In this document: piece by piece, positions 1,585 to 38,572 of the stretch
Position numbering within the stretch: the stretch's first letter is position 1
How the letters are laid out: every line of letters begins with the position of its first letter
From: Eucommia ulmoides
Taxonomy: Eukaryota; Streptophyta; Magnoliopsida; Garryales; Eucommiaceae
Length of the DNA stretch: 64,000 bases
Direction: 5' to 3'
NCBI GenBank assembly: GCA_016647705.1
Contig: CM028325.1
Span: forward strand, 30,360,474 to 30,424,473
The notes under the pieces: model-generated
Databases searched by the model: none
Told to the model about the DNA's origin: nothing
The model's input: the letters and a program-made list of their open reading frames with translations, nothing else
Program-made: the position numbers and the translations under genes

Positions 1585-2861
1585 TGGGGCACGAACATCA
1601 AATGGAAATAATTATTGAGAAGAAATCATATTATAATTGATATATGCTGGCGATTCTGTTTTTTTTTCATATGCTTTTTTTGATATAAAAAATTTATATT
1701 AATATATTTAAAATGTATCATTTTGATTTAATTGAGTGGATAAAGGTAGTATACATCAAGTTTATATTTGAGATACCTTGTGTTATTCTTTCAGATACCA
1801 AAATTAGCCTCTATTATTTTTGTAATATTTTTGTTGGCAAAAATACTCTGGTATCATTTTTATTTGTTTTTAATTTTTCGTTTTTGTTTTTATTTTATGT
1901 TTTCTACTTATCATTTGTTTACTATTTTTTATTATTTATTTTTGTTCCCTATTTTATATTTTGTTTATTTTATTTTTAATTTTTTCTACGATTTTCTTAA
2001 GAAAACAACAAAATCAAAAGTAAAAAATTAAAAAACAAACAACATAAAATAAAACAAAAACAAAAACTTAGATTTAAATATGGTAAATAGTTATATTTTT
2101 TAAATTTATATTTTTAATATTTTGAATTTTATTTTTTTATTTTTTACATTTTGTTTTCTAAACTTTTATTTCCGATTTTTTTTTTTTAATTTTCTAAAAT
2201 ATCATACTAAAAAAATAAAATAAAAATTAAAAAATATGAAATAAACAAAATAAAATATTATATTATGAGATTATTTTCATTAATAAAATATGATAGAAGG
2301 TATTGTAGATAACTAAACCGAAAAGACGAGATATTCCATATATTATTGAAAATAATAGATATTCCATATATGATAAAATTGACATGAAAGAATGGTTGGT
2401 ATTTATCAAAATAACTTATCATATTCAAACTCCATATTAACATTATTATTTCATCTTTTTATTAATCAATAAATTAGACAGTTTATACTCACACCAATTT
2501 ATAAAGTTAGACTTAGCTCAATCTCCAAAAAAAAAAAAGAAAAAAAGAAAAAAAAGGACAATCTTATTGGAATATTAGGAAAGTGACAGCAGACGAGGAA
2601 GACACAAAATGGGCAAATTCAAGCAACGCTTGCGCGTAATCACAAGTTAACCTTTCAATCTCCCAATTCATTTTTATTTATTTATGCTTTTCTCACTCTC
2701 TATTTATATAATTTAAAATTATTATTTTAAATATAAATAATAATTAAAAATAATAATTTTAAATATTTTTGTAACAAATTATTTAATCATTTTTTTTTTT
2801 CATTTCACTTGCTATTATAATAAATATATAAGTAATAGATTTTTTTTTCAATTTTTTTTTT
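1585..2861. other. A/T-rich intergenic DNA, no feature seen
   Basis: This stretch is dominated by T-rich and A-rich runs. The open frames in it encode only Phe/Tyr/Leu-rich low-complexity peptides, as expected from poly-T. No RNA gene, transposon end or tandem array was recognised. Confidence 0.6.
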
Positions 2862-3832
2862 ACTCTTTCCAATGTTTAATTGGTCTTTGGCATTTTAAAT
2901 TTGATACACTTGGTCCCTAATTAATGAATTTGACTTTAATTGGGTCCAATTGACATTTCTATTAGTCTCAATTGGCGGCCAACCATTAGAGTGGAGACTT
3001 TTTGGTCTTTTTAAGTCTAAAACAGTTTTGTTCTCTTTTCTGTTTTTGTCTTCTGCGTAACACCTCTTCATTCTAGCCTATACATAGTCCTTTGCCTTCT
3101 TCCTAATTTGGCAACTCAAAATGTGAAAAATCAACACATTTGTAACTGTGGAGAAAGAAAAAAATGACAACTTTCTCTCCCAATTCATCAAACATACATT
3201 CTAAAGTAAATAAGCAAAATACATTGGACAAACAAAACAATCCATAATATATTTTAAAAAAAATGTCAGAATACATTAAAAAAATATGTATAATGAATTC
3301 AAAACCCCCCCCCCCCCCCCCCCCCCCCCCCGGATTTTGAATTTTTTGGTGGAATGAAACAAAATCCAGAACATAATTAAAAATTCTTCAACCCATTTTG
3401 AACTTGTACATTTCAAACCTGTACAAAACATAACAGAATATTTCCAAAAAAAAAATAACAGAACAATCCAGAAAAAAAGAACAAAACAGAACAAAACAAA
3501 ATGCAAAAACACACACACACACACATACACAATACACAACAACAATGAATGTGTTAAACTCAAAATACCGGAAGCCAATTGAAACACCCACCCCAAATAT
3601 GAAGGCCCAAAAAAGTCATTTCCCAGGTAATTGAGTTCAAAATAACGTATGTACACCTGCTTATAAGGTCACATGCTTAACATGTAACTTATTCCATCCA
3701 ATTTGGACTACCACCATGGTTAACTGGACCAAATTGAAGCTAATTGCATTAATTAGAGATCAAATGTGTCAAACCCGAAATACTGGAAGCCAATTAAACA
3801 CTCAACCCAAATATAAAGAGTCCAAAAAATAT
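2862..3832. repeat. ~1 kb inverted-repeat element (MITE-like or partial)
   Basis: The left block around 2870-2935 is similar to the reverse complement of the right block around 3745-3810: both carry a phrase like caattaaacac, aatactgg/aaatgcc and attaattag. The right arm also has a direct partner at 3549-3620. No coding sequence is present. The MULE at 3851 lies just beyond its right edge. Boundaries are approximate and no target duplication could be assigned. Confidence 0.45.
3305..3331. repeat. Poly-C run of 27 bases
   Basis: An uninterrupted run of 27 cytosines lies inside the inverted-repeat element. Such runs are rare in A/T-rich plant DNA and are length-unstable in sequencing, so the exact count should not be trusted. 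Confidence 0.9.
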
Positions 3833-3841
3833 TTTCTCTAA

Positions 3842-3850
3842 ATAATATTA
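3842..3850. repeat. Left 9-bp target-site duplication of the MULE
   Basis: The 9-mer ataatatta directly precedes the terminal GGG of the element and recurs exactly at 15465-15473 after the terminal CCC. Nine bases is the usual Mutator target-duplication length. Confidence 0.85.
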
Positions 3851-3936
3851 GGGTCAATCCGCCGGTGGTCCTCAAAATGGCAGCTATTTGTTAAAAACTC
3901 CCGAAGCCAAAAGTGACTTTCGTTTTAGTCCCACTC

Positions 3937-3946
3937 AATATAAAAA
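3937..3946 (+). promoter_or_regulatory. TATA box of the MULE Ulp1 gene
   Basis: The sequence aatataaaaagg lies about 90 bp inside the left end of the MULE and about 285 bp upstream of the first ATG at 4224. It is followed by a GC-richer leader. This mirrors the TATA box near the right end that serves the transposase. Confidence 0.5.
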
Positions 3947-4223
3947 GGCGGAATGCCAAATCACACGTGCCAATACACGTGCCCTGCCAGCGTTCTCGCC
4001 GAACTCCAGACCGCATTCGCCGTCCTACGCGAAAATTCAGAGGTCAGACCATCATGGCGCAGCGTGTCAGACCGTAGGCCGACTTTCTACGCAACAAATC
4101 GTTCCACTAAGCTGCAAAACTGTCTCGTCATCTTCTTCATTCTAGAAACCCTAATAAAACCCTTTACACTGAAAAAAATTGTGTTTTCAAAAAACTCTCG
4201 AAAAAATCCTTCTTCCTTAAACA

Positions 4224-7200
4224 ATGTCGAGAACACAGTCCGGCGCCGACTCACCTTATGCTCCAAAAAGAGGTAAAAACCCGTCCATTTCTTCACGATT
4301 CTACTCTGTTTTTTGAGACTACTAGTACATCTGTCTACTATTACATGATTTAGTAATTATTCAGACTACAATAGTTACATGCACCTCGAAACATTTTGTG
4401 ACATGTAACTAGAAACGTATATATGTCATTATCGGAACATATAACTGAATATTACCCTTTTCTATACAATATCCGACTTATATCTGCGACTTATATCTTT
4501 TTTGTTTATGAAAATAGTTACTTGTAATTAATATTACAGAAATACATGTTATTATGCACATGCAAAACGTATTCGACATATATCAGAAATATCAAACTTT
4601 TTAGTTACATGATATCAGATACATGTAACTAAAAAGTTACATATTATTAGACATGTAACTGAATATTACCTTTTTTTGTACTACTTCCGACTTATATGTG
4701 TTAAAATAGTTACTTGTAACTAATATTACTGAAAATATGAACTAAAAAAAGTTACAAGAAAATATCAAATTTTTTAGTTACATGATATCAGAGACATGTA
4801 ACTAAAAAGTTACATATTATTAGAGATGTAATTGAATATTATCTTTTTTTTTGTACTACTTCCGACTTATATGTGTGAAAATAGTTACGTGTAACTAATA
4901 TTACTGAAAATATGAACTAAAAAAAGTTACAAGAAAATATCATTTTTTTTTAGTTACATGATATCAGAGATATGTAACTAAAAGTTACATATTATTAGAT
5001 ATGTAACTGAATATTACCTTTTTTTGTACTACTTCCGACTTATATGTATGAAAATAGTTACGTGTAACTAATATTACTGAAAATATAAACTAAAAAAAGT
5101 TACAAGAAAATATCAAATTTTTTAGTTACATGATATCAGAGACATGTAACTAAAAAGTTACATATTATTAGAACATATAACTGTATATTACCTTTTTTTG
5201 TACTACTTTCGACTTCTATGTGTGAAAATAGTTACGTGTAACTAATATTACTGAAAATATGAATTAAAAACAATTATAAGAAAATATCAAATTTTTAAGT
5301 TACATAATATCAGAGACATGTAACTAAAAAACTTACATATTATTAGAACATGTAACTGAATATTACATTTTTTTTGTACTACTTCCGACTTATACGTGTG
5401 AAAATAGTTACGTGTCACTAATATTACTGAAAATATAAACTAAAAAAAGTTACAAGAAAATATCAAACTTTTTAATTACATGATATCAGAGACATGTAAC
5501 TAAAAAGTTACATATTATTAGAACATGTAACTGTATATTACCTTTTTTTGTACTACTTTCGACTTATATGTGTGAAAATAGTTACGTGTAACTAATATTA
5601 CTGAAAATATGAATTAAAAACAATTACAAGAAAATATCAAACTTTTAAGTTACATAATATCAGAGACATGTAATTAAAAAACTTACATATTATTAGAACA
5701 TGTAACTGAATATTACCTTTTTTTTGTACTACTTCCGACTTATATGTGTGAAAATAGTTACGTGTCACTAATATTACTGAAAATATCTGTCATAATGAAC
5801 ATGTAACTAAAAATGTTTGTAATATTTATCATATCTATATATTGAAGCATAGTAACTAAAAAAAGACATAAAAAAAAGGTTTTAAAATTTTATTTATCAG
5901 CTACTAATTTGTAGTAACTAAATGTACTTTGTAATAAAATACAACTAACTTATATTGTTATAGATCCAAGAAAAGGAAAAGCACCGGTAAGTAGAGAAGA
6001 AGAGGTAGAAAATGTTCTTTCCTTGACTCCAAGTCAAGAAAAAAAGTGGTACCATCAGTTCAGATCATCATTGAATCAGAGGATAGATCTTTTGACCGAA
6101 CTAAACCTTAGAGACGACCACAAGGAATGTTTAGCCAAAACACCTTTTTGGCAAACATTTAGAGCCCTAATTGAGAAAGATGTCACTCCGCAACAGTTTA
6201 AAAAAAAATGATCACCTAATTCTAGACATCATTTCTCGATATAATCCCTATAAAAATGCATTCAAAATTGCTGGGAAGTACCTCAGGCTGAAGCCCTGTG
6301 ATGTACGGCTCATATTTGGGATTAGGTCTGTAATAGAAGTGATCAATTGTAACTACGGGATGCGAGTGTCATCAAATTTTGTAATCAGAAACAGACTGGA
6401 AGGTGTACCGAAATTTACAGTCTGCATGATCAAAGAGATGGCAAAAAACAAAGTAACGGGTACAACACCACTTAAGGTTAGTGATGTTGTTCGCCTACTA
6501 TGCATGCATTTGTTTGCAACTTGTTTTTATGCAAACAAGGGACAATTTATTCCCTATGGCTTGGTCAAGTATGTGGATGACATTGACAAGATGATGACAT
6601 ACGCTTGGGCTGAGTCGATACATGAAAATCTGATGGCGTCTATTCGGTCAGACTACAGTAATCCAGTAGCGGTGAAAGGATGTGTCTTTGTTCTCCCAGT
6701 AAGTACATATTCTAACAAAAAAATCCTTAAATTGTCAAGTTACTAAAAATATTATTGTATTCTGACATAAAATACAATCTTTATTGAAAACAAATGCAGT
6801 ATTGGTTGTGCGAGCATACGACAATACAAAAACCAATTTCGGGAAGACTGAGAGCAATTCCACGTTTCACAAAATGGGATCTAAAGAGATTAAACAAGAA
6901 GCTAAGGAAATTGGGATTGCTCTATGTGACACCAAATCAGGTACCAGATCTCTGTTTTTTCTCATATTTCTTGCAAAAAAATACTAAAAAAAATGTAAAG
7001 TAGAAAGAGTCGAAACATGCATACAATTACTACAAAAAAGAACTAGACACATGTAACTAAAAAATTTGAGAAAATGTAACTAAAAAAACTAGGGGAAAAT
7101 TGGTGAAATATCTCATGTTTAAATTCTAATTATTGGAACATGTAACTGAAAAAAATATAAAACTTTTTAGTTACATATCAGATATGTGTAACTAAAAAGT

Positions 7201-9668
7201 TATATATTATTGCAATATGTATTTGGAAAAAAAAAATTAGTTACCTGTAACTAATAAAAGTAATTACCTGTAATCCATATATACGATTACTAGACATGTA
7301 ACTAAATATATGTAAATTATTAGAGACATATAATTAAAACACTTATATTTATGATTACAGGTTTTGTCGATTGAGGTATCTGAGAAACTGGGTGAAATTC
7401 AACAAGGAATTTGCAAACCAGTAGAGAGAAAGACAACAGAATATGATTAAGATATTACAATAATAGAAGAGCGTAGTGCAAAGGAAAAAACAACTGATGA
7501 TACTCATATTGGAAAAATAAGGAGAAAATTAAGGAAATCGGTTCATCTGCTAGATATACCCAGTTTTGATTTGGGAATTTCTGAATCTGACACTAGAGCC
7601 CCAAGGGTAGATCGAGAGAAAGAACAACTGAAAGAAAGAATCCTGCGTCTGACAGAACAGAATCAGGAGCTGAAAATGTAATGTGCCTAATCTGCTAAAA
7701 GGATTGAGGAATTGAATGGAGTTATTGAGGTGTTTACTGAAAAACAAGAGAAGTTAGAGAAAGAGATAATGAAGTTGAGTGTGCAGCTTGTCACTCAGCA
7801 ATATTGTATTGAGCATCTATTGAGAGAGCAAATCCAAGACCTCGATTGCTACTACAAACAGTTGGTGGCAAGAAAAGATGAAGAAATTGAGAGTTTGAAA
7901 GATCAACTTGCTGGACTTGATGGCAGAGAACCAAATGTAAAGGTGAAAGAGTCCTTTGACGATGAAGAATCATACGTGCCAACAGCATATTTGGGTGCAA
8001 CTTGTGACTTCAGACACAGTCCAACAGAGGAATCGTTTGAGCAGAAATTAAATATTCAGGACATAATGACAAGAGACGCCACACCACAAATGGAATAGGC
8101 AGTTAGGCTGTCTGCTGATTCGATTGATGATGAAAAAAGACAGCTTATTCAAGAAGAAAGTAATGCTGTCAAGCCTTCACACCATAAACAAAAAGTCAAA
8201 TCGAAAGCCAAAAAAACTGGTGACCCAAACTCTCTCATCAAACGAATCAAATCAAGATCACGGAAGCAAAAGGCACATGAAGAAGAATATGTGTATAATA
8301 ATCCTGTGAAAAGGATGAAGACAAGAAAAGATGATGAAGAGAGAGTGGATGAACCCATGGAGGTGGATAGTTATGTAGTCCCTGATGAAGATCCCACAAA
8401 AATGCCATCAAAGCGGAAGAGTTCTGTTGCGCCGTTCTTGGATGACGAGGACTGGACACTCATGAAGACCATTTATGATCTTGAACAATCAGGGTACTAA
8501 TTTACATCTAACATACATTTTTTTTTACCAACTACATGTACTAAATACAGAAAAATATGAAATTCTGCAGGTGTTTTGTGTTTGGAGGTGAAGGAGTAGA
8601 AACACAAGTGTCGTTGCGTGATTTATTTGGAATGCTTGTCGAAACAGAAGTTTCAAATTTTGTAAGTTTCTGTAATGTCTCTAAATTCTAAATTTATAAT
8701 GTTACTCATATATAACGTATAATTTTTTTTTTACTATTTTTGTAGATTATAAATGGATATGCTGAAGTTCTAATGAATAAGCAAGAACAAAAGATTACGG
8801 AGCTTAGTCTAACGCAACAGACTTTGTTGAGCAAATCATTCTTTACAATCAGCTCAGCATGGGTAATTTTGTATATTATTATAAATTTATTATGTTTTAG
8901 CAAAAAATATCTAACATCTGATAAAAAAAAAATTGCAGAAAATGATGAATGACAATTCAACAAAATACCTCGAAGATTATTTCTATCCACAGTTGGTACA
9001 AGCTTTAAGCGAGGACTATAGATACATCCATTTCCTAATGAATTCTCCAGGACGAAGTACGATAGAGAACCATTGGACATTACTCGTTCTGGATACGCAT
9101 GAGAATACATGGAGATTCTATAACTCGTTGCAGCCTAGAACTGGAAAACAAGAGGTCGACTACTATTTCAAAGATGCAAGGAAATTGGTATGTTAATAAC
9201 ATGGAAGTAATATACATTTGTTTAATTATTATTATTATTATTTTTTTATATATATTTCATATATGTTTGTTTTTTTTAGAAATTGTTTGTTGAAACATTT
9301 ATTAAGAAACATCGAAACCAGGATGCATCAGACCCCAAGTCTGAATCTAGGATGACATATGTCAAGAACACTCCACAACAGCACCCCGGCAGGTTTAAAT
9401 TTTTTTTTTAATTTTGTCTGTATGCTAGTCTTCTTAATTTGATAACACTAATTTTTTCTTAAAAAAAAAATACAGCAAAGATTGTGGAGTTTTTGTGATG
9501 TACTTCATGAAGCAAATAGCACTGGGGGAAGAAATTGATCCAGATTTCACAAGAGATGAGATCAGAAAAGAGAGGGCATTAGTCATTGAATCTTTGTTGC
9601 ATCATCCAACAAAATCTTGGATAATGAATGACTATTTGGCAAAAAAATTAGCAACAAAACTGGATTAA
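4224..9668 (+). pseudogene. MULE-carried Ulp1/SENP-like C48 cysteine protease, nine exons, broken
   Basis: I place exons at 4224-4272, 5964-6698, 6800-6940, 7361-8493, 8571-8661, 8746-8862, 8939-9187, 9280-9392 and 9476-9668; every intron is GT-AG. Summed length minus one base is 2820 nt, about 939 codons. The N-terminal third has the LKPCDVRLIFG...GCVFVLPYW region typical of Ulp1-like MULE proteins (DUF1985-like). A charged coiled coil and a Lys-rich nuclear-signal-like stretch follow. The last exons form the protease: His in NHWTLLVLD, FYNSLQPR where an Asp is usual, and the Cys in KDCGVFVMYF. The family cleaves SUMO-like modifiers in the nucleus; its job in transposition is unknown. Damage is one extra A in an A-run (6200-6208) plus four in-frame stops in exon 4 (7448, 7679, 7688, 8096). 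Each stop is one C-to-T step from a Gln codon. Confidence 0.85.
4604..5790. repeat. Tandem array of ~174-bp units in intron 1 of the Ulp1 gene
   Basis: About seven copies of a unit recur. The landmark phrase ctacttccgactta or its variant appears near 4681, 4857, 5031, 5204, 5380, 5552 and 5728, giving a period of 172-176 bp. Each unit contains several copies of the acatgtaact/agttac word, some as facing pairs separated by a few bases. The array fills most of the 1.7 kb first intron. Copies differ at a few percent of sites, so it is not an assembly artefact of identical units. Confidence 0.85.
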
Positions 9669-9890
9669 CAAGCCGTACGCTAATTATTTTGAACAAAAAT
9701 CGTTTCATGTGTGTAATGTTTTTTGACGGTTTGTTTTCATGCAATTTTTGCTATCAAAATTTCATTTTGCAACTATCGTATTCCAGATGCATGTCTGTCC
9801 AACGATTTTCGTAGTAATATATTTGATGTTTTTTGGTTTCTAGACAATTATAGTAATCTAGTTACATGTCACTAAACGATTCACATTTAT

Positions 9891-10185
9891 TGTACTACTT
9901 AAATAAAACAAAAGTAAATAACAAATAGTTACGAAGAACTAGAATCAATATCATTTAATCGCACCTGTGTTTTATTAAAAATAAATAAGTAATTTAAATA
10001 AAAACTAGTTATAAGTAACTATAATCCCCTAATTATTGTATTACTTAAATAAAACAAAAGTAAATAACAAATAGTTACGAAGAACTAGAATCAATATCAT
10101 TTAGTTGCACCTGTGTTTTATTAAAAATAAATAAGTAATTTAAATAAAAACTAGTTATAAGTAACTAGAATCCCCTAATTATCAT
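9891..10185. repeat. Two tandem copies of a 146-bp unit in the MULE
   Basis: The phrase tgtactacttaaataaaac at 9891 recurs as tgtattacttaaataaaac at 10037, and the following ~145 bp match almost fully. Both copies carry tagttacgaagaact and agttataagtaact words related to the element-wide motif. The repeat lies in non-coding DNA just downstream of the Ulp1 gene. Confidence 0.85.
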
Positions 10186-11283
10186 TACTTTTAGTTACAT
10201 GTATCTGCACCTCTTCTTTTTTTAAAAATATAAAAATAAATACTTATTATATATTTAAAAAGTGAAATGTGAAAAAAGACACTAAAAACATAGGCATTCG
10301 ACATCACTTCAAAAACCAATATATTTATTATATATTTATAAAAATATATAAATCTCTTTATACTTATATATTTTAATAATTTAAAAATAAAAAATTATTT
10401 AAAATAGAATACATGTCCCTAGTATCCCTATATTTTGTAACTAACAATTGGATTATTAGAATCTTTTAGTAATATATTTATTAATTAAAAAACTAAATTT
10501 TAATACAAAACACTTTACCTAGTTACATATACCTAGAATATAGAACTAAAAAATTAAATCTAGTTACATGTACCTAAAAACACCATGTCTCATCGCTAGT
10601 ACATTTCAAAAAAGTGAAATGTGAAAAGACTAATCACACCATGCGTCATCACTGCAAAATCGACGTGATGGACTCTTAAATGCACTGCAATACTAAAAAA
10701 TACGTCCTCATATTTATATATTAAAAAAAATTAAACAAACACGTGTCCCTAGTTACAAGTAACTAAAAATAAAAAACACTAAAAGTTAATTAAAAAATAA
10801 ATTTAAAATAAAATATAATAATTAAACGTAATAATTACTTCTATAATTTAGTACTATTAAACCACTATACCTATTTACATGTACCTAAAAATCTTAAACT
10901 ATAATTAAATCTAGTTACATGCAACCATTAATAAACTTCCAAATATATTCTAAAATAAAAATAAATAAAATGGTAAAAAAAAAAAAAATGATTTAAATAA
11001 AAATTAATTTAAATTTAAAAATTACTCCGATTAATAATTCAATAATTCCAAAAAAGAATAATTTAACGATAATATACTCACATGTAAAAATAAAAAAAAA
11101 AAAAAGAAAAAACAAAACACTATGTCTAGTTACAGGTACCTAGAATGTGTAAACTGCATAGATTCTAATTACATGTAATCATGATAAACGTATTTATTAT
11201 ATACGAAACGACGTGATGGATGTTGTATGTAAGAAAATGATTCGTATGCTACATGTAATCGTTGTTCTATCTAAAAAAATTTG

Positions 11284-11292
11284 ACTATAAAT
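11284..11292 (+). promoter_or_regulatory. TATA box of the small MULE ORF
   Basis: The word ctataaatac lies about 65 bp upstream of the ATG at 11354 and is followed by a leader rich in C and A, a normal plant core-promoter arrangement. It supports the ORF being a separate transcription unit. Confidence 0.5.
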
Positions 11293-11353
11293 ACGAAATC
11301 GCCGTCGTTCGTGTTCATATCTTCTGCACAAAAAACTCCCAGAGCAAAAACAA

Positions 11354-11677
11354 ATGGGAAACAAGTTTGAGACTTCCATCAAGACATGTTTATCAGAGTG
11401 CAACCATTTCATGAAAACGATAACAGAACTAATGTGGAAACTGGGCGCAACTCAGACAAGTTATCGGTGGATGAGACAAGAGAGAGATCAAGGAATAAAA
11501 GAGGCAGAAGATATGCGATGGAAATTGGGTGCAACGCAGTCAGAATGTCGACGGATGAAGGATGAACGAGATGAAGCACGACAACAAGCACAGTGGAACG
11601 AGATAGAGACCAAACTCCTCAAAGATGATGTCGACTTTTACAAGAACGTTCTCGCAAGACAAATTGCAAACAAGTAA
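11354..11677 (+). CDS. Small intact coiled-coil protein of the MULE, function unknown
   Basis: This 107-residue frame is open from ATG to TAA, with a TATA box 65 bp upstream and a good start context (caaATGGG). The protein is highly charged and mostly helical by composition. WKLGATQ occurs at residues 28-34 and again at 56-62, so a 28-residue unit, exactly four heptads, is duplicated. No signal peptide, zinc finger or catalytic motif is seen. It lies between the Ulp1 gene and the transposase and converges on the latter. VANDAL-type MULEs also carry accessory proteins beside the transposase (VANB, VANC), but I see no sequence similarity I can claim. It is the only one of the three MULE genes still undamaged in this copy. 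Confidence 0.7.
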   Translation: MGNKFETSIKTCLSECNHFMKTITELMWKLGATQTSYRWMRQERDQGIKEAEDMRWKLGATQSECRRMKDERDEARQQAQWNEIETKLLKDDVDFYKNVLARQIANK

Positions 11678-11989
11678 TACCACATCTCTTTTTTGTCTTT
11701 TCAAAAGTTTTTATATGTATTTTGTTCATTGAAAAAGCCTACTTTTGTATATGTCTATGGATGTTTTTTTGTTATAGATATTTTGAATTTTTGTACTGTA
11801 ACCACATATGCCTAAAAAATCTAAAAAAATTGTTGCATGTTAAACAATGCACAAAAAATCGCAGATTTCAGTGACATGTAACTAAAATTAATTTCAATTA
11901 AAATTGAAAAGAACTGAAAAAATCAAGTAACGCTTTCTAAAAAATCAGAAACTGAAAAAAAATAAAAAAAATGTAAAAACATTCTTCAA

Positions 11990-14549
11990 CTAAAGCGCAA
12001 GTTTGCACGTTTTCCTATTGTGTCTACCTATTCGACTACATCGACCACACTTACGCTCTTTCACCTCACCCCTTGAAAGGATTCTTTGCTTTTTCGGTCA
12101 TCCAGGTTGCCTTCTTGATAAAGGTGACAATATGACAGACTCTGTCTGTTAAAAAATAGGTCTTTCCATTGTTGGCACTGGGTATATGCTTTTCGAATAA
12201 CTCTTACGATAGAAACTACAGTGAAAGTAGTCTTCCACAAAACCATATACCAACGAGCCTGTTCTCATAATTGCTGCACAGGCATGCGAACACGGGAAGG
12301 AATTCAATTGCCACAATTGACACAAACATTTTCTTTTATTTAGGTCAACATAAACAGAAGGGTGGCAGTGCACTTCATAGACTCCTTCTGCGCCCTCGCT
12401 AACCAACCATGTTCGACATTCACTTATATGCCGTAACAATTTTGCATCCCAATGAGGACATATAATTCCACTTAAACGTAATGAATCATTCCTCCGTTGA
12501 GACATTTGTTCCATTAATGAAATCCTTATCTTGTCAACCATCATAATAATTGGCATATGCTTGTAATTCCTAATCCATGCATTAAAAGACTCAGCCAAAT
12601 TTGAGGACATCTCTCCATACCTTGTGCCTCGAAAAAACGCTCGACTATATATTTCTTTTGCCAACTCTTCCATAAACTTCTCCACCCGTGCTCCCCCTTG
12701 AACAATCATGTCATCATATGCAACATGGTATAATTCCGGGGTAACTGCATAAGCACACTCAGATAATTTGGCAACAAAAAATTCCTTTGTTTTGGTAGTC
12801 TGTCCACTCAATGCAGCTTTCAAGTTCATTTTGAGATGGTGTAAACAAAATGCATGATAACAATGTGGAAATACATTTCGGACTCCTTGAATAATGCCGT
12901 TGTGCCAATCAGAAATGAATGTTATGACACGTTCCAGAGATAATATAACATTTAGTCGTGTCAAAAACTAGAACCAATTATCATCATTTTCAGCATCAAC
13001 AATGGCAAATGCAAGTGGAAACATACCTAAACAAATGAAAAAACAAAACAAAAAAAATAACAGTAAAAAAGCAAATTTTTTATAAATGTATACAAAAACA
13101 AAAAAAAAACATCATGAAAAATATATAAAAATTAGATAAGAATAAAGAAGAAAAAGTATAATGTGATTAAAATGGTATAAAAAACTTATATTGTATTTTG
13201 TTAACAAATAAAAAAATATTTAAATAAATTATTGACATGTCACTAATATTACATCTTAAAAATGTAATATAAACTATGACATATTATAAAAGAAGATACA
13301 TGTCACTAATTTTACAAATGACTCTAATTTAAGTGACATGTAACTAAAAAATGATTTAAAATTTAAAAATTTAAAACTTACTTACATGTAACAGAAATGT
13401 GTTAATTTAAGTACCTTGATTGCCGTCCTTACCACAAGCAGCAAGAAGAACTCCTTTGTATCTACTAGTAAAAAATGTCCCATCCAGAAATAACATTGGG
13501 CGTATAAACTGAAATCCATGAATACACCCATGGAAAGCAACAAAAAAACGCTTAAAACGATTTGTGTCGCCTTCATACTCCAACAACATGTAACTGTTAG
13601 GATTTGTTCTATTGCATGCTTCTACATACCATCTCAATTGATTGTATGCAGATATATGATCCCCAAAAAGGCTATCCCATACCTTTTCAACTCCAAGCCA
13701 AGCATGATTGTATGTAATCTCAAGACCATAACTTTTCTTAAACTCATGAAGAATATCAATAGGACGTGTTTCAGGTTTATCCTTGACAGTTTCCAACAAA
13801 CAACTAGCAACAACATTAGAACTCATCCTCTTGTTCTTCATAGTTCTATATGCTGCACCACATGTATGTTCATTCAGCAACTCCTTTATCTTAAAAAATC
13901 CATTCAAGGTATCAGTACGCGCATGTACAAACCACTTGCAATCTCTTGTATCTCTAAATGAACAATATGCAGTGATATGGACTTTATCATTTTTCTTATA
14001 CTTGTAACTAAATCCAATTTCAATCGAATACTTCCTCAAGACAGTACGAAATTCTTCCGCCCCACCTTTAAAACACTGCCCCACACAATTAATACCTTTT
14101 GCCCACTCCGAAGATTGCAAGTACTTCTTCTCATGACGCCAAGAATAAGACAGCATATCATCATCATCATCATCATCATCATCATAAACACATAGACTTG
14201 ATTCCCCTGATCCACTAGGACCACTATCTGCTACATTACTTGAACCCCAACAAGATGTACCACTAAAAACATGTCCAGGGATTATAGAATTGCTCTTTAT
14301 TACAATTTCCACAAAATCAACACTAAATGATCTAATCAACACAATCATACCATCATAGTCATCTTGATCACATAACATACAGTTTGGATGACCAGGCAGA
14401 GAATAATGCATATCAAAAGAGATTGATGACAAGCTGTTCCATCGATAGACAACCTTTTCCGCGAAACTAACAAAATTCATCTCACTATCAATTTTCACAA
14501 TTCCACTGTAATCCTCGTATTTGCACAAAGCAATAGCCAAGTTTGACAT
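11990..14549 (-). pseudogene. MURA-type MULE transposase, two coding exons, broken
   Basis: Exon 1 is 14549-13415 and exon 2 is 13026-11990, with a GT-AG intron, giving about 723 codons. A 5' UTR intron (15146-14561) is also likely. The N-terminus is a regulatory-like domain with an Asp tract near residues 125-135. It is followed by a FAR1/WRKY-GCM1-like zinc-binding region (CKWFVHAR...HTCG). The MULE DDE core follows: Asp 356 in FLDGTFF, Asp 418 in ISDWHNG and Glu 524 in NLAESFN. Next is a SWIM zinc finger (Cys 612/614/624, His 626). A C-terminal Cys-His knuckle, CGRCSRIGRHNRKTC, ends the frame. It cuts and joins element ends in the nucleus. Three in-frame stops break it: 12970-12968 at an expected Trp, 12151-12149, and 12100-12098 at an expected Arg. 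At least two of them fit G:C to A:T change. Confidence 0.9.
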
Positions 14550-15264
14550 TTTATATCTAACTGCAGATATTGCTACAAGAAAAACACAGAATTACAAAAA
14601 ATGTAACTAAACTTACTCTAAAACTAGTAGAATATAACAACTTTTGAACTAAACTCATAACATAAAAAACAGAACAAAAAATAACACAATTAAAAATGTA
14701 ACTAAAAAAGTTACACTAAAACTAGTAGCATGTAACTAAATTTGCACTAAAAAATTTATAAGGTCAGAACACATATCACACAATTAGTATGTAAACTAAA
14801 AACTTATACTAAAACTGGTAGAATGTAATTAATTTTTCACTAAAAAAATCCAGCTAAAGATTCGAACACGTACTCTAAAAAATCCAGCAAAAAGGATCAA
14901 AACACATCAACGAAGGTCAAAATCTGTCGCGTTTATCAAACTTATATATCACCTTATTAAAAAGATTTCGTCCTATATGCAAAAAGACTTAAAGATTGGA
15001 AAATAAATCAATCAGATACTTTGCGAAAAAATACAGTCAATTCATATCCAAAAAAGATCAAGATCTAACCAAATTTGCGTCATAAAAACCAACGATCAAT
15101 GAACAAATCACTAAAAAACAGTGCAAAAACGATATGTGGTACTTACATTTGATTCGCTGATCATTAGTCGACCTCCTAAATCAATAGAATCCGAGATCTG
15201 CAAAACCCTAGCTCGTCGACGAACAAAATCACCGAAAATAGAAGGCAAAACTCTGAAACTGAAA

Positions 15265-15275
15265 CTATATATAGG
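15265..15275 (-). promoter_or_regulatory. TATA box of the MULE transposase gene
   Basis: On the minus strand the sequence reads cctatatatag, about 190 bp inside the right end of the element. A 5' UTR exon follows and ends at a consensus donor (15146). It is spliced to a candidate acceptor at 14561, just before the ATG at 14549. Confidence 0.55.
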
Positions 15276-15464
15276 CGCGAATTCAAACTACAACGACTAA
15301 CGATCTCAAAGAATTGCCCTATACGCTCCAAGAACCATACGTGAGCACGCGCGGGACTAAAACAAGGGAGAAAAACAGATTTAGGGACTAATTCTAAATC
15401 TAATCATAAAAAAGGACTAATCGCGGATTAGACCATATAATTAGGACTAATTGTCAATTTTCCC

Positions 15465-15473
15465 ATAATATTA
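15465..15473. repeat. Right 9-bp target-site duplication of the MULE
   Basis: Exact copy of the left 9-mer ataatatta, directly after the terminal CCC of the element. Confidence 0.85.
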
Positions 15474-22839: not shown

Positions 22840-24971
22840 TGTTGATCCTAAGATTTTGATGGACAATTACACGTTGATATTTTTTGTGGAACTAACGGTT
22901 TGTTTAAGTGTTTCAATTTATTAGTTCCGAATGATGAAGATTTGATGATAAAGATGATAAGGAAATTAAGAGGTTGAAAAATTTGAAGAACCTAGGGAAA
23001 ATAATTCATGTTTAAATTTTAACTCTTAATATCCCAATTAGGATTACATACGACACAAAAATATTTTTAAATGATTTTTATAAATATGTGTGTTTTTAAT
23101 AGGATCCTAATTAATTAAATTATTTGCTCCTATGTGTAATTAAAAAAGAAATATTTATAATTGATTAAAATTTGATTTAAGTATTTAGTAGAGCTAATTA
23201 AGAAAGGAAAATGGTTAAAGAGGTGAAAACGTAAATGAGAATGTATTAAAAACGAGTTTAGAAAAGAGATCCAACATGCATAAGTTGACTGCTAAGTCGA
23301 CCGGACAAAACAGGTAAAACTATTTGTATTTCTCAGTCGACAGGTCAGTCGACCGGTGAAGAGAAATAGAACTCTCTAAATCTCTAAGTCGACAGGTAGG
23401 TCGATGATGAAGGAAAATGGAACTCTCTGAATCTCTAAGTCAACAGATAGGTCTACCGATAGGCACAAAATCTTTGGCTTTGCTACATCCTGAATTGAGT
23501 GGTCGACTGGTCGGTCGACTGAATCAAGCGGTCGAGAGGATTCCGAATTCATATCTAAGAGTAATTATTTTTGGTTGGGATTTGTGAGAGATTTTAGGGA
23601 TTTTATGATATTTAAGATATGCTACACCTATTATTTAATTCCTATTGATTTGGTTCATTAAGTTTTAATGTTTCTCAATTTAGTGCATAAAATTGTTTCT
23701 ATTCTATTAAATTGAGATTGAGAAATATTTGGAGACTTAATTGAGAGATTTAAAAGTTATAATTAAGTGAATTGAACCAAAATGAAGTCATAATGATATA
23801 AAGGTTCTAAGAGAGCATTTAACTGTCATGACATATGAGAACTAGTCGTTAGAGATGTGATTTATATCCCATATATATAGACCTGTGTTTTTCATATAAT
23901 TAAGAGGGGCTAAGAGAGATTAAGAGATTAAGAGATCATATTGAGTTTTTCTAATAGATATCATACTGAGTTTTTGTGAGAGCTATTCTAAGAGACAATC
24001 TTGATGATCACTGGCTGTTGATCATTGCTATTACCGAATCTGAAGTAATTACGCTCTAATTATTTTTTCGGTGGATTCCGAGTGAGATCTTTTCAATTAC
24101 TTTCTATATTGTATTACTTGTTTAAATTTTGAAAATTGATCTTTAGAAATTGTTTCTAATTTTTATTGAAGAAAATATTTTATAAATAATTTCTTGAATC
24201 TGATTACGTGCTAAATTACGTGCCACCTATCTTTTATTAAAAATTAGATTTTTGAGTATCTTACATTTCTATCACTAATTTTGAGATATTAATCGAGTTT
24301 TGATTTATCTAAGGTGATAGAAGTTTCGAGTGAGATAATTTGCTTATCAATTTGTATTGGTGAGTAGTGTGACGGATTAAATACTATTGGAGACATTTAA
24401 TCAAAGAGTAGTCTGTTTCAGTCTCTTCCTGTAAAGAGATTAAGGTAGTAATTCTTCCTAGATAGAATTGATTTGTGTGAATTTTGTAACGGTTCAATCC
24501 TTACCGAGTAAAAGAATATTTGGAGTGTTGGTGATGTTTTGATTCTTTTGCCTTTGTGTTAAAAAGAATTAGATTATTCTTTACCCTGTCAAAAGTAGAG
24601 GTTTTTCTTTAGCATGTGAAAATGATTTTATAAAGGTTGATTCTAAACCTGTAAAAGAATAATTGTGAGAGTTTGGTTCCTAACTTTAAACGGATCTTGA
24701 GTATTAGTAGGTATGACTCTCCGTGAGGCTCGAAGAACTGGATTGGCCAAGAGTAGCTTGGTGAACCAGTATAAATTTCTAGTATGCTACAATCTTTATT
24801 TTATTATTGTTGTTTGGTGTGTACTTATTTGATTTTATAATTCCGCTGTAATATAAAGATAATAATTAATTTAGGATTAAAATTAATTATTTGATTTATT
24901 AAAGTATTTTCTCTATAATATTTTTAATTATCCAATTCACTCCCTCTCTTGGGTATTCCACTAGGCCAACA
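22840..24971 (+). mobile_element. Solo LTR of a related Copia element, nested
   Basis: This 2.13 kb copy has the same TGTTGATCC start and GGCCAACA end as the flanking LTRs but is clearly more diverged from either than they are from each other. It is flanked by ctcat (22835-22839) and ctcac (24972-24976), a 4 of 5 match to a target duplication. It carries the same gtcgac cluster (23280-23520). The simplest reading is a solo LTR left by recombination after a related element inserted. Confidence 0.75.
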
Positions 24972-25309: not shown

Positions 25310-27620
25310 TGTTGATCCTAAGATTTTGATGGACAATTAAATGTTGATGTTTTTTGTGGAACTAATAGATTTATTGAGTGTTTCAGTTTATAAGTTCCAG
25401 TAAAGATATTTTCATAAAGAAAATGAATGCTGAAGAGACTGACAAAGATGATGGACGTTAAGAGAACGAAGAAATTGAAAAATTGAAGAATCTAGGGAAA
25501 ACAACTCAAGTTAAATTTTTACTCTCAATGTATCCCGATTAGGGTCACACACGACACAAAATATTTTTACAATTATGTGTGTTTTTTTAGAATCCTAATT
25601 AGTTAAATTATTTGCTCATATGTGTAATTGAAAAAGAAATAAAGATAATTGACTAAAATTGAATTTAAGATTTTAGTGGAGTTAACCGAGAAAAGAAATC
25701 GGTTAAAGGGCGGCAACGTCGAAGAAATTGAATGAAAGTAAATTAAGGAGATATGTTCCAACAATGGTCGGTTGACAGGTAAGTCGACCTGTATTTATGA
25801 GGCAAACTCCCTGAATTGTTCGGTCGACAGGTAAGTCGACTTATGTTTTAAAAATGAACTCTTTGAATCGGTCAGTCAACAGGTAAGTCGACTTATGTTT
25901 TAAAAATGAACTCTCTGAATCTCTAAGTTAACAGATAGGTCGACTTGTGAACTATCCTAAATCGTTTGGTTAACATATGAAATGTGGGCGATCGACTGAT
26001 GGGTGAAGGATTTTTGGCTTGGCTACATCCTGAATTAGGCGGTTGACCGATGGGTCTTGGACAATCGACAGATAGAGATGTTTTAGGATTTATGAAATTT
26101 TGGATTTTATTCAAAAGGAAGCCGTTACTAGCCATTTTATGGTTAAGATATGTGAGATATCCTAGGAATCTGATATGTTTTAAGCTATTTAATTAATATT
26201 TAATTATCCCTATAGATATGGTTCAAATATTTTTGATACCTCTCAATTTGGTACATGTTATTCTTTCAATCTTATCTAATTGAGATAGTGTAAAAGTTTG
26301 AGGGATTTAATTGAATATTTTAAGAGATTTTCTTAAGCGAATTATACAAGGAATGAATCATTATGATATAAAGGGTCTATTGGTGTAATTAAATGTCATA
26401 ATTTATGGGAACCAACCGTTATAGGGCTTGTTTTAAGAGGCTTTAAATGGACCTGCGGATTTCACATGTAAAAGGATCAGATATCAATATAATCTGAATT
26501 TATTCTGAGCTATTTATCTTTCGTGTTTTCTAAGAGTTATCATACTGAGAGTTTGTGAGATCTTTCTTGAGAATCATTATTCAGAGATTATTTGTTTGAT
26601 CACCGATTTGAAGTTGCATTGCTAATAATTATTATTCCCTGGAATCTTGGTGAGATCGTTCCAAATTACTTACTATTAATTGTTGCTTAATTATATTATT
26701 TATTACTTGGAATTTGATCTTTGAATTTGCTTTCTAGATTTTTATTGAAAATTATTTTTGAAACAATTTTTTGAGAAAATCTGATTACGTGCTTAACTGC
26801 TTACTATCTATATTTATTTATCGGATTTTGAAATTCTCACTTTTCTATCACTAGTATCGGGACATTAATTGAGTTTGAATTTATCTGGGGGCGGTAAAAA
26901 CTTCGAGTGAGAAAATCACTTATTAATTGTTTTTAATTGGTGAGTTGAGTGTCGGATTAGATACTACTGGAAATGTCTAATCAAGAGTAGCTGGTTTCAA
27001 TCTCTTCCGGTAAAGAGATTGAGGTTTTGATATTTGCCTAGAGTATAAAATAATTAGGTGTTAATTCTTTCTTGATTGAATTTGTGAGTGAATTGTAAAT
27101 GTTTCATCCTTACTTGAGAAAATGATACTTGGAATGATTGTGAGGTTTTGATTCTTGAGTTTAAGGTATAAAAAGAATTAGGTCGTGATTCTCCCTATAA
27201 TAGAATTAGGTTAATCTTTTGCCTGTAAAATGATAGGTTATTCTTGAGCTTGGAAAAAGAAAAGTTTATTCCTGAGTAAAGGTTGATTTTGAGCATGTGA
27301 AAAGAATCATTGTGAGAGTTTGATTCCTACCTGTAAAGGAATCTTGAGTTTAGTGGGTACGAATCTCCGTGGGGCTCGGAGGACTGGATTAGTCAAGATT
27401 AACTTGGTGAACCAGGATATATCGTGGTGTGTTACTTTATTTACTTACTTATATATTATTATTTAGTGTGCATCTAGTTGATAATATATTTTCATTGCTA
27501 TAAAGAGATAATAGTTAATTTATGATTAAATTAATTATTTGAATTTTTTAAGTATTATTATATTGATAATTTTTATCAATACCCAATTCACCCCTTCTTG
27601 GGTAGCTCATTGGGCCAACA
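25310..27620 (+). repeat. 3' LTR of the Sirevirus-like Copia fossil
   Basis: This 2.31 kb repeat matches the LTR at 18379 almost end to end, including the gtcgac cluster at 25765-26075, and is followed directly by gtaat. Confidence 0.88.
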
Positions 27621-27625
27621 GTAAT

Positions 27626-30330
27626 ATAGTCATTTACTTAAAGAAAAAAATAGTTAAAATGAAAAACTTTTAGAGGGTATTTTCGGAATAAAAAATGACC
27701 TGAGAGTTTAGGTATCATTTGACCAAATAGTTCAAGGGGTGTCCTATGTAGTTTTGAAAGTTGAGAGGATTCCCATGGTTTTGGTCAAAAGTTGAGGGGA
27801 TGTAAGTGGTATTAACCTTTTTTTTTTTCAAGACTTGTGGTATTAGTATGTGTACGGGTTGTTTTGAACTATGAATTTGTTAGTTTATTTTTTATGTTGA
27901 TTTTATTTGGTTTACGTTTGATGGTTGTTTAATTTGGTTTATATTTGATGTTGGTTTCATTTGGTTTATATTTGAATATTCTCTATTTCACTTTTATTTT
28001 TATTTATCGGTCATTCCAATACCACAAATACTTTTGTCACCAAACGTAGAAATGGTAATGGTTATTTCAAGATTATGTTTAATCACTTTTGTCATTAAAC
28101 TTAGAAATGATAGTAGTCATTTTATTTCAATATTACATTCATGTCAATACTACACTCATTTCATTCCATTCCATTTCATTTTAAGCGTATCAACGTATCA
28201 TCAAGATTTTAAAATTTAAAATCGATATCTTCATATATGGTTTTTACATGACAAATTTTTATTCTATAAATATCAAATTCATTAAATTTTTTTCTCCTAT
28301 TTTTTCTATCAAAAATTGTTGGCAGAGAGGATGAGAAGAAAAGACAAAATAATATAAAATAATTCATATAAAGGTAATTCTACGATCGGTTTTAAATTGT
28401 ATTAGTTACATCATCATATTTAACCGAATCGATGGCTTTAGATTAATGTAAACTTTGGTGGAGATCGAATGTCCTTATTTGGAACAATTAATTAATTATA
28501 CACGAATTGATTTTATGTAATTCTAATGCCCAATGGATTTCATGTTTAAACTGTTTTTTTCAAATATATTTTTGGAAATATGTTTTATTGAGATTATTAT
28601 TATTTTAAGAAAAAGTAGAGCTAATCCCACGTTGATAAAGTAAATTCACATTGACCATAAGCTCAATAAATTTTTTAAGAAAATACTTTTTTAAAAAAAT
28701 ATTAACAAAATTAATTATCTAATTTTGATATTCCAAAACAACTATTTTCATAAATAAACAAGTAAGCCCCAATTCATTTTACATATCTACTCTCTTTATC
28801 TCTTTATTTTTTGACGCTTCCTCCCCATCACCGGTTGATGTCACCATCAGTTGTAATTTCACACCGCTGACTTAACAACGTTACCACTGTCAACCACCAT
28901 CTCTCTTTCTCTCTCTCTCCTTTTCCAAAATACGACCACCACAACAAAATCTAGTGGCGGTCATGTATGATTTGGCAGGGTATGACCAAATTGTGGTGTT
29001 GGCTCAAATCTGACTAGCAACAGTCAGTTCTGATCTCGATTTAATCTTAGTTGACCAATGCATATTCAGGCACCACCAGATTTGGTGGTAGCCCATATAT
29101 CACATGTTACGACCAGATAAAGTTTTTTTTTTTCCCATGATCTGGTTTCATTTAAACTGGATCTTGTCGCAAATTAGATCATCAGATATGATCCCTTAGA
29201 ATTCAGATTATTTACTGTAAGAAAAATGACATTTAACTATGAACATTTTTGTAGCCAAAGCGTTATCTTTCATAGAGAAATTAGTGTTTTAGTGACAAAA
29301 TATATTCGTGGACAGTTTCCGTCGCCCATGCTTTATCACATAAGATATTTGCAACGAAATGTTCTTTCCTCACACATGAATAATATTTCACAACGCGTGA
29401 TTTTGTAGTCGATTTTGTGGTTAAATAGTTGCATTATGTCGTCAAATTTGTAGCTATATGTATATTTTTTACTTATAAGTATTTTGGCAAGAAGGAGAAT
29501 GAATATCAAATTAATATTTTCTGTCTAAAATTGTTATAGGGATAATCAGTAGGGGTGTAGTGTAATGATTGGGAAACTTTAAGTTGTCATATTTCAAGGG
29601 GACTTTATACTTTGTACCCCTCAAGTTTGACCAAAAAATCTCACTTTGGTTCTCATTGTTACAATTTGAATATTTAATATCGTAATTTTTTTTAATCATA
29701 CCACTATAGTGATGATCAAGAATAATCCAGAATCCATCTGTTAGTACATGATGAGCGTCAACCAATTGTCGAATTTAGTAATAATTGAGGTCGATTAGTT
29801 CGAACTCCCTTTTTATTTTCCAAGAAGAATTTTACCTTTCTAGTAACATTTTTTTATCAAATGGGCGTCCTATAAGTCTGATTATCAATGTATCTTTCCA
29901 ATTCTTTCTAACTTGGCTGAGAATTTGATTTGGGATTGTGATTTTCGAAAACAAGGGTTCCGCATTGGGTTTCCTCTAATAGATTTGAGTTTTTCAAGTT
30001 TTTGTTTGTTTTGTATTATATTTGTAGGCATAAAATCTAAGGACACGTGGCAAGTCAACATTCAACTTCCTAAGCAAAAAGTGTGATAGGTCAAGGATCA
30101 TATGAATATTTAGAAAAATAATTTAAAATTAAATATTTTATTTTATTTCACTGTATGTAAATTATATTATTTTATTTTAATTATTGTTGATATATATATT
30201 TGTAATGATTATATTTATGTATCGTAATTACATGTTTATGAGATATTATTATTGTGATTAAATTATAAAATTTATTAAAACGACTTTATGAATTCTATTA
30301 TAAATATATAAGTTATAGTGTAATTATTAT
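27626..30330. other. Intergenic DNA, no supported gene
   Basis: This A/T-rich stretch holds short low-similarity remnants. Around 27700-27810 is a phrase resembling common plant repeat debris (aaagttgaggggat). Around 28890-28920 is a CT microsatellite. Two short blocks (29565-29660 and 30036-30110) partly resemble sequences upstream of the small gene at 55708. Frames are short and domain-free. Confidence 0.45.
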
Positions 30331-32396
30331 TGTTGGTGCGTAAAACTGGTACACACTACGAGTATGATTCAGTCGGATGACAGGTAGGTCCTCTTGCTGA
30401 GGTGAAGTCGTCAGTTGAAAATTCTTCGGATGACATGTGTTGGGTCCTAGGAGGACTGACTTGCTGTGTCCAGAGTCTTGCTCCTCAGGGGGTGTATTTG
30501 CAAAAAGCTCAAACCGGGATTTATCTTAGTGAAACCCTTCCGATGTGGTAATTAGTGCTTAGAGAGAAAAGGTACAGTAATGGAATAAGTAAACAAATGA
30601 ATTTACGCGTAATGTAAAGCGTATTAAAGCGTACCTCGGACTTACATAGCCCTCGATATATATGGACGTTAGAGATGATTAGTTGGGCCTAAACACGGTT
30701 AATTAGTTAAAATCCGGTGTTTAGCCGATAATCCGGGACGCTTAGGAGATAATTGTTGGGCTTGGGCTTTTGGGCCCATTTGGCGAAACCCGCGAGCCTT
30801 TGGTAGGCCTGTGGTGAAAATGTTGGCAATAGTGGACATGGGGCCGTTAAGGCCCAGGTGTTGACTTGGGAAAGCTCAAAAATACCCTCATCATTAGCCC
30901 TCCTAACCCTGTGCGACGAGGGAAGCGAGACGGTAAGAGATTATCAATTCTTGATTGGAACGAGCGTTCTGGAGACTTCGAAGGGTGAGAAACACCTCTA
31001 ATCGACATTTTTCTTAGAGTTAGTTTTTTCTTGAGGAGTTTATTCGAAATAGGCTTCCAGATGGTCGGGGTCCGGGATCAGGTAGCACAGTAGGGCGACA
31101 CCGAATTTCTTCTATTTTCAGGATGATAATTTTTCAAAAGTTGACTTTTTCTGGAGAGCGAATTTTAAATAGGCCCCCATGTGGTCGGGGTCCGGGGTCA
31201 GGTAGCATGGGAGGACTTCGAATTTCTTCAATTTTTAGGGCGTCGTTTTTTCCACTGTTAGTTTTTTCTGATGAGCTAATTTAAAATATTCTCCCATACG
31301 GCTGGGATCCGAGATCAAGTAGCAAGACAGGGCGGCCCCGAATCTTTTCAATTTTCAAGATGACACACGTTCACTGTGAACAAGCCTTGAACATGGATTG
31401 ATCTTTACCATGGAGAAAATAGAAGTGAGCCCAAGGATGGTGCGTGTCGCGAACGAGTAGGGCGGCGACACGGTGCACCTGTTAGGGATGCCAAGCATCC
31501 ACCCCGGCTAACCGCTCAGCCGGGAACACGGTGGCCCAAGGGGACAGCCTCACTGATCCCCATAGGGAAATGGGGCCAGCATGGTGTTAGACCCCAAATA
31601 GGGCCAACGACTGGCCTTCACTTGGGGCTAACAGCGCTCCTGTTGGGGCGTTGGCCGCAAGGCCAGCCTTTAAGCTGCCCTTAAGGGGCCAGTAAGGGGG
31701 CGTTCTCTCTCATCTCTTAGCGCTGGCTGCAAGGCTAACATTCAAGCTGGCCTCAAGGGGCTAACATGGAGGGGGCACCCCTTCCCCCCTCCTGGATAAC
31801 ATTTTTGGAGAAGGTCGCCACCTGGACCCTGCCGGGCAAGGGTAGCACGGTAGGGCGGTACCCGTCCTACCAGATGGTTCCGTTTACGATGTACTGAGAC
31901 TGATGCCCGTTACGGTTCCACGCACGAGGGCCCCGATCAAAGGGATGCCGAGGAGGATAACGCTGACGAGGGGGCCCCTGAGGAGAGTGAGATTGATGCC
32001 ACTTCTCCCCGCACGGATGCCCCTTACAACGAGGGCGGAGAGGACTAAGCTCGAACCATCACTTTTTCAAGACTTAGGATTTTGTATACTCTTTTTCGCT
32101 TATTCTTATTTTCCTGCGTGCAAGCGTGTAAGGTTTTGAGCAACATAACTAAGGTACTTCAGAGTACTAATTTCTCTCGACGTTTTCGTCAAGCCGCTTT
32201 TTGCTTGGTCCTGTTTTCAGAGTTTTAAAATTTTAAAATTTTTGTCAAAAAAATTTCTCGTCTCTGCCTAGGGCCATAGACCACTAGCCTCCCAGTCTGG
32301 GACACAATTTGATTGTAAGAAAATCATGTTATAGACTTAGGATGAGGGTTTTCCAAGGTGTTTGGTGCTCTCGGTCTGTAGGGGCACAACGCGACG
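30331..32396 (-). repeat. LTR (left copy) of the Gypsy array
   Basis: Starts tgttggtgcgtaaaactgg on the plus strand and runs to about gcgacggttg. It includes repeated ggtagcac-gg-agggcg phrases spaced about 110 bp apart (31070-31340). It matches 38573 onward except for a differing segment corresponding to about 39000-39290. Confidence 0.7.
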
Positions 32397-33359: not shown

Positions 33360-33654
33360 CTAGCTGTAAAACCCCGACTTAGCAAGTACGTCATTTTAGT
33401 TACATTTTGGAGCAATTGGAAAAAATATGGGGTAGAATTGAATTAATCATTATCCGAATTAAAAGTTTAGGGGGACGAATTGTAAATTTGTATACATTAA
33501 ATCCAACCTTTAGGATTCAAATTGTATTTCAATTGATAACATGTAAACTTTTTGGGGGTGAAATTACAATTTGAAGGAAAATTATAAATGGTAAATTGGG
33601 TTAAAATAGGAATTAAAGAAATTTGGGGGGAGGAAGGAGTAATTAGAATAAAAG

Positions 33655-33656
<2 letters not shown>

Positions 33657-33725
<69 letters not shown>
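33657..33725. repeat. (AT)n microsatellite, 69 bp
   Basis: Uninterrupted AT dinucleotide tract inside the solo LTR. Its homologous position in the other chromovirus-like LTRs (47050-47072 and 51809-51858) also holds an AT tract. Confidence 0.95.
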
Positions 33726-33726
<1 letters not shown>

Positions 33727-38540: not shown

Positions 38541-38572
38541 TTTTTGCATGGTTCCCACAAACGGTGCCAAAC

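Follow-up and report, generated by a model that had tools for sequence, protein, structure and literature searches.

The element described here lies at positions 3851 to 15464 of a stretch of Eucommia ulmoides DNA of 64,000 nucleotides (the window, i.e. the whole stretch; all positions are window coordinates). It is a full-length but dead member of a multi-copy family of Mutator-like elements (MULEs) that lack long terminal inverted repeats (TIRs). It combines a transposase gene with a gene for an Ulp1 fusion protein. Its introns and intergenic parts carry a short element-specific word, GTAACTA, which is one half of the 16-bp dyad TAGTTAC-NN-GTAACTA. By analogy with VANDAL and KAONASHI elements, it is read with moderate confidence as an anti-silencing system whose protein would bind this dyad. 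The bounds of the element are as follows.

3851-15464, no strand assigned: element of 11,614 bp with GGG...CCC ends, delimited by the flanking duplication and by end matches in other copies.
3842-3850, no strand assigned: left target-site duplication ATAATATTA, from the sequence, identical to the right one (9/9).
15465-15473, no strand assigned: right target-site duplication ATAATATTA, from the sequence, identical to the left one (9/9).

Five pairs of the form 9-mer, GGG...CCC, 9-mer, 1-20 kb apart, are found in the window (the element's pair included), versus 0.54 per shuffle. Because AT-rich 9-mers recur in this way, the duplication taken alone is weak evidence; it was rejected as sole proof of an element, chance pairs being present in the window. 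The ends (left 250 bp and right 250 bp) were therefore searched for in the organism's own assembly (946,670,599 bp, 391 contigs). The best 40 of 65 candidates were scored for the left end (the window's own included; 83-100% identity), and all 40 start at query base 1 or 2. The best 40 of 322 candidates were scored for the right end. Other copies were paired by hand (27 copies), 20 of which were fetched whole and read. The 9 bp outside the ends match at 9/9 in nine of these 20 copies, 8/9 in three (thus at least 8/9 in 12/20), 7/9 in four, with one copy each at 6/9, 5/9, 4/9 and 3/9. The right end is altered in three copies with poorer duplications (C14c, C6b and C9b). The duplications differ in sequence between copies, as do the 12-bp outer flanks. 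Target-site duplications of 8-11 bp characterize MULEs. A full-length Ulp1-bearing MULE with exact ends and a perfect 9-bp duplication, as claimed from the sequence-only reading, is thus confirmed, and 9-bp duplications also bound other copies. No empty site was found: the joined flanks, used as a query in the window, hit nothing but their own sequence and repeats of the flanks. Just before the insertion, the left flank contains two copies of a 67-bp stretch (3548-3614 and 3763-3829, 85% identity).

The copies are 94.7-96.7% identical to the window element over aligned columns (2,808 to 10,996 of 11,614). Per-site changes are about tenfold more frequent for C>T (4.6%) and G>A (4.3%) than for A>G and T>C (0.4%), an excess that would fit methylated, silenced copies. 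Codon positions diverge about equally between the copies and the window element, with no bias indicative of selection, as would be expected of decay after a burst. In none of the 20 copies are the transposase and Ulp1 exons all present and stop-free. The C8 copy has stop-free transposase exons, the C17 copy is devoid of most exons, and a deletion copy of 2,846 bp retains both ends and 17 GTAACTA words.

The element carries three gene units, including a third open reading frame (ORF3), and TATA-like boxes near both ends, all of which had been proposed from the sequence.

3939-3946, plus strand: TATA-like box of the Ulp1 gene, by eye; TATAAAAA is found in 20/21 rows of the left-end alignment (eye count).
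4224-9667, plus strand: Ulp1 (C48) fusion gene of nine exons, hand model from splice signs and reading frame.
4224-4272, 5964-6698, 6800-6940, 7361-8493, 8571-8661, 8746-8862, 8939-9187, 9280-9392 and 9476-9667, plus strand: exons of the Ulp1 gene.
11286-11293, plus strand: TATA-like box of ORF3, from the sequence.
11354-11677, plus strand: ORF3, 107 aa, with a coiled-coil look by eye and an internal repeat (..WKLGATQ..).
11990-14549, minus strand: MULE transposase gene of two exons (about 14549-13416 and 13021-11990), from profile matches.
15265-15274, minus strand: TATA-like box of the transposase gene, by eye.

The gene map read from the sequence is complete in its units, but the genes are broken. 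The transposase gene has three premature stops (12970-12968, 12151-12149 and 12100-12098). The Ulp1 gene has four stops (7448, 7679, 7688 and 8096) and a frameshift near an A-run at 6200. With X placed at the stops, the transposase is of the MURA type (MULE, 2.3e-18; DBD_Tnp_Mut, 4.7e-12; Transposase_mut, 3.9e-8; SWIM, 3.4e-6); it presumably has a CCHC-like knuckle just before its final stop. Exons 5-9 of the Ulp1 gene match Peptidase_C48 (E value 9.2e-12; 45.7 bits, cut-off 20.7). This gene lies inside the element, on the strand opposite to that of the transposase gene, as in KAONASHI elements and CUMULEs. An AlphaFold model of its DUF1985-like exon was discarded (pLDDT 32.6). Of the 19 other copies that have ORF3, 16 align with it from end to end. 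Since the stops of the copies fall at 11 different positions, ORF3 was probably open in the ancestor. No Rfam family was found in the window at gathering scores.

The non-coding parts carry the following repeats.

4372-14738, no strand assigned: field of 55 GTAACTA/TAGTTAC words, halves of the dyad TAGTTAC-NN-GTAACTA; 53 are non-coding.
4587-5786, no strand assigned: tandem array in intron 1 of the Ulp1 gene (174 bp x 6.9) with 22 GTAACTA words.
9887-10182, no strand assigned: second, intergenic array (146 bp x 2) with 4 GTAACTA words.

The word is found 55 times in the element and three times in the other 52,386 bp of the window (twice in the 29,000 bp of its AT-rich remainder). Only 2/55 are coding; the 53 non-coding ones lie on both strands (29 plus, 24 minus). 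Outside the arrays, 27 words are found in 4,802 bp of non-coding DNA versus two in 5,316 bp of coding DNA. The expectation for these 27 is 1.26 and 1.23 under Markov-1 and Markov-2 nulls, respectively, and 2.71 under Markov-3 (maximum 9 of 300). Unbiased scans outside the arrays give words overlapping GTAACTA as the most over-represented in the element, and the 8-mers ranked 1-3 in the whole window all overlap it. At a gap of 2, the opposite arm of the dyad matches 4.33 of 7 positions versus 2.10 at random sites (maximum 2.89 of 2,000 sets); the next best gap or orientation reaches 3.11 (25 gaps tested). The element has 27 dyads with at most 2 mismatches, and the remainder of the window has none (42 and 1 with at most 3 mismatches). 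Outside the arrays, the flanks of the words hold little information beyond the dyad. The words are present in all 20 copies, with 40-68 per full-size copy and 0 or 1 in 600 bp of flanks. The 174-bp unit of the intron 1 array is repeated about 2.5 to 10.9 times, depending on the copy.

A diverged relative carries a dyad of the same shape. A protein search of the genome was done with exon 7 of the Ulp1 gene (best 150 of 1,371 candidates scored, the family's own copies included), and three relatives were sampled: C10:1753220 (44% identity), L056 on C14 (55%) and L058 on C9 (73%). In the C10 relative, a homologous exon lies early in the gene (47.6% over 42 aa, E value 1.4e-9). In 2,001 bp of the intron upstream of it, CGTTAAC is found 23 times on both strands, many occurrences overlapping in pairs, versus 5.3 under Markov-3 (maximum 15 of 500). 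Eleven sites of this relative fit GCGTTAA-NN-TTAACGC with at most 2 mismatches (three are perfect). Ten of the 11 are located downstream of the likely first exon and upstream of exon 2, in the intron that matches the array intron of the window element. The two dyads have the same 7-2-7 shape, with GTTA....TAAC in common. None of the 21 window-family copies contains a perfect GCGTTAA-NN-TTAACGC or any CGTTAAC, and the fetched piece of the C10 relative contains no TAGTTAC-NN-GTAACTA. In the fetched pieces of L056 and L058, neither a recognizable early exon nor the motif was located. No relative was found among viral contigs.

The words could owe their spread solely to an AT-rich satellite-like unit that was duplicated in tandem and decayed, or be a host transcription-factor site, with no anti-silencing role in either case. 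Nearly half of them do lie in the two arrays (26/53 non-coding words), and they are no better conserved within the family than other non-coding DNA. This explanation is nevertheless judged unlikely: the 27 words outside the arrays are dispersed in separate introns and intergenic stretches with nearly uninformative flanks, exons are nearly free of words, and in the same place the 44% relative carries a dyad that differs in sequence but not in shape.

The perfect dyad TAGTTAC-NN-GTAACTA is found 1,877 times in the genome, versus 10 for the pattern read backwards. The window copy and the 20 fetched copies together hold 119 of these (summed). Fifty of the 1,877 places were listed, all on C1, and 34/50 lie outside the copies known from the left-end search (hand count). 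Three places outside known copies were fetched (5 kb each; L053, L054 and L055), and the window exons have no match in them at an E value of 1e-3. A scan for 9-bp duplications bounded two of them and gave no bounds for L054.

L055:2193-2828: gene-less element of 636 bp with a dyad cluster, duplication 8/9.
L053:1683-2655 (or from 1633): gene-less element of 973 (or 1,023) bp with a dyad cluster, two possible left ends, duplication 9/9.

Since none of the three has an exon match and two are bounded, gene-less stretches, some of which are element-like, carry dyads. In L054, two dyads 39 bp apart (2484-2538) lie near a 376-codon open frame, which is presumed to be FAR1-like; the 39-bp spacing recurs at C1:16336672 and C1:24944847. 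A chimera control, GCGTTAC-NN-GTAACGC, gave 0 and 0 in the genome.

The ends of the element are built differently from its interior. No long TIR was found, as had been stated from the sequence; the ends share only a weak local similarity (the score was reached by 3, 1, 11 and 101 of 300 shuffles for 60, 150, 300 and 600 bp, respectively), so that the element belongs with the non-TIR MULEs. Phased short words are present at both ends, though.

3865-3931, plus strand: left subterminal words GTGGTCC, AAACTCC and TTAGTCC, at positions 15, 45 and 75 from the left terminus.
15354-15450, minus strand: right subterminal words, four TTAGTCC, at positions 15, 45, 74 and 105 from the right terminus.

TTAGTCC is found five times in the element, always within 120 bp of an end, in a 30-bp register common to both termini. 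A first control was too loose (some 7-mer was found at least five times in 152 of 3,768 random pairs, the printed examples being simple repeats) and was set aside. The control retained leaves out simple repeats and demands a shared 30-bp phase at both ends: none of 19,684 random pairs of 120-bp window pieces held a word with five copies in one shared phase of 30 (maximum 3). The register is kept in other copies with scattered losses. In L055, GTCC occupies bases 18-21 counted from either end and, at the left end, bases 48-51 as well (hand count). The TTAGTCC-like words are the best candidates for the recognition sites of the transposase.

The sequence-only reading had suggested instead that the transposase recognizes the internal repeats, which would replace the TIRs as binding sites. 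The words are element-specific and long TIRs are absent, in keeping with this idea. However, no GTAACTA is found in the first 521 bp or in the last 726 bp of the element, the separate word TTAGTCC lies only within 120 bp of an end and keeps one phase relative to the two termini, and L055 shares the GTCC end positions (L053 does not). The idea is not supported and is considered very improbable. The internal repeats fit target sites of anti-silencing better than transposase sites.

Such targets are known from Arabidopsis, in which transposon anti-silencing by VANDAL elements has been shown by experiment, as far as the consulted papers go. In VANDAL21, the motif bound by VANC21 is YAGTATTAY; it lies in one orientation, in introns, in intergenic DNA and also in terminal non-coding DNA. 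VANC6 uses AGTTGTCC/AGTTGTAC, and the targets often form tandem repeats gaining and losing units (PMC5735166). Arabidopsis VANC proteins carry DUF1985. A review, in the part consulted (PMC13317346, citing Sasaki 2022), adds that Ulp1-carrying VANCs (KIU) recognize motifs and cause hypomethylation. The element resembles VANDAL21/VANC21 and VANDAL6/VANC6: it is a non-TIR MULE whose introns and intergenic DNA are dense in a short motif specific to the element, it has tandem arrays of changing copy number, and motifs differ between related families. It differs in the motif sequences and in its protein, which has a C48 domain and only sub-threshold matches to DUF1985 and PMD. Among the papers searched, no title deals with a palindromic VANC target; the one MULE paper listed was consulted in passages on other matters.

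Other known elements share some of these features, as far as the consulted parts of the sources go. KAONASHI (KI-) MULEs of Arabidopsis and CUMULEs of melon have an Ulp1 gene opposite to the transposase gene, as one of three genes (PMC2528002, PMC13317346, PMC9768921). KAONASHI are also non-TIR MULEs, and the 9-bp duplication is typical of plant MULEs. The comparison is one of gene content and structure; the 30-bp end register and the genome-wide 16-bp dyad are described here. PMD-carrying MULEs, for which their authors speculated on anti-silencing, recall the weak similarity to PMD seen N-terminally in the Ulp1 protein. In those elements, known from several grasses and Amborella, PMD is fused to the transposase; the match found here is under the Pfam cut-off (PMC5418596). 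CitMule of citrus is a non-TIR MULE with perfect 9-bp duplications in 3/4 copies (PMC4334395). Its degenerate subterminal motifs were suggested as transposase sites, to be compared with the end words found here. It has a degenerate TIR of 17-65 bp instead of a phased word without TIR, and the text of that paper does not contain the word Ulp1.

The element could also be an ordinary decayed KAONASHI-type MULE, whose Ulp1 fusion protein has a role unrelated to the words, e.g. proteolysis of a transposase regulator. ULP1-like genes are reported in several grapevine MULE and CACTA families (PMC2528002, in part), and the review, in the part consulted, describes the Ulp1 part as being of unknown function (PMC13317346). 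This explanation leaves the dyad field and the differing dyad of the relative unexplained and is considered improbable.

In the anti-silencing system proposed, the transposase would bind the TTAGTCC-like words that lie in 30-bp phase at the two ends, and would insert the element with a 9-bp stagger. The Ulp1 fusion protein would bind TAGTTAC-NN-GTAACTA in introns and intergenic DNA as a dimer and, once bound, would remove silencing from its own family in a sequence-specific manner, its C48 domain perhaps targeting SUMO-like modifications on silencing factors. Copies that have no genes but retain dyads and ends could be helped in trans. To the ends, duplications, genes, copies and dispersed dyads observed, dimer binding and sequence-specific release from silencing are added because the element fits the VANC pattern apart from the exceptions named below (inverted dyads, ends that lack them and a sub-threshold DUF1985 match). 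A wider proposal is made more tentatively: Ulp1-type MULE anti-silencing proteins may read, as dimers, a modular 16-bp dyad code with a common GTTA....TAAC core and family-specific outer and inner bases (TAGTTAC-NN-GTAACTA in the window family; GCGTTAA-NN-TTAACGC in the 44% relative), many gene-less elements with cognate dyads riding in trans.

Several points weigh against the anti-silencing system. The N-terminal part of the Ulp1 protein matches DUF1985 at 12.8-14.4 bits only (cut-off 35.1) and PMD a little better, yet below the cut-off (18.1-18.9 versus 34.9). The sites are inverted 7-2-7 dyads on both strands and are absent from the ends; the motifs of VANC21 have one orientation and also lie in terminal non-coding DNA. 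Conservation of the words among copies is 0.954 versus 0.949 for other non-coding DNA, and 273 of 1,000 base-matched sets reach 0.954; the alignment behind the conservation tests is partial (2,808 to 10,996 of 11,614 columns per copy). Equal conservation and equal codon divergence are expected of mere decay after a burst and are no proof of selection. TAGTTAA-NN-TTAACTA, intended as a chimera control, is enriched too in the genome (764 versus 60, 12.7-fold). Some of the palindrome excess may thus be general; this pattern is perhaps a third motif class or an instance of such an excess. Only one of the three diverged relatives is informative, and the C10 relative is known here by its Ulp1 gene and intron, not as a MULE. 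Lastly, L053 has GTCT and ATCA at 18-21 and lies outside the end register. Because one of the two gene-less elements thus lacks this register, the odds given to the anti-silencing system and to the modular dyad code were slightly lowered.

Other features of the window are as follows. An open frame at 43552-44127 (minus strand), presumed to be gag-like, lies in a GC-richer block (30000-44000) amid tandem repeats of 117-120 bp at 31003, 32652 and 42986; this region is perhaps a long terminal repeat retrotransposon. Tandem arrays with GTCGAC-type words are found at 56655-57591, 23331-23460 and 25805-25946. A run of 27 C is found at 3305-3331.

The phased words give non-TIR MULEs a concrete hypothesis of end recognition. 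For the anti-silencing system, the family offers a ready test in another genome: two related proteins, two related but different dyads and 1,877 candidate sites, most of which lie outside the 21 copies read.

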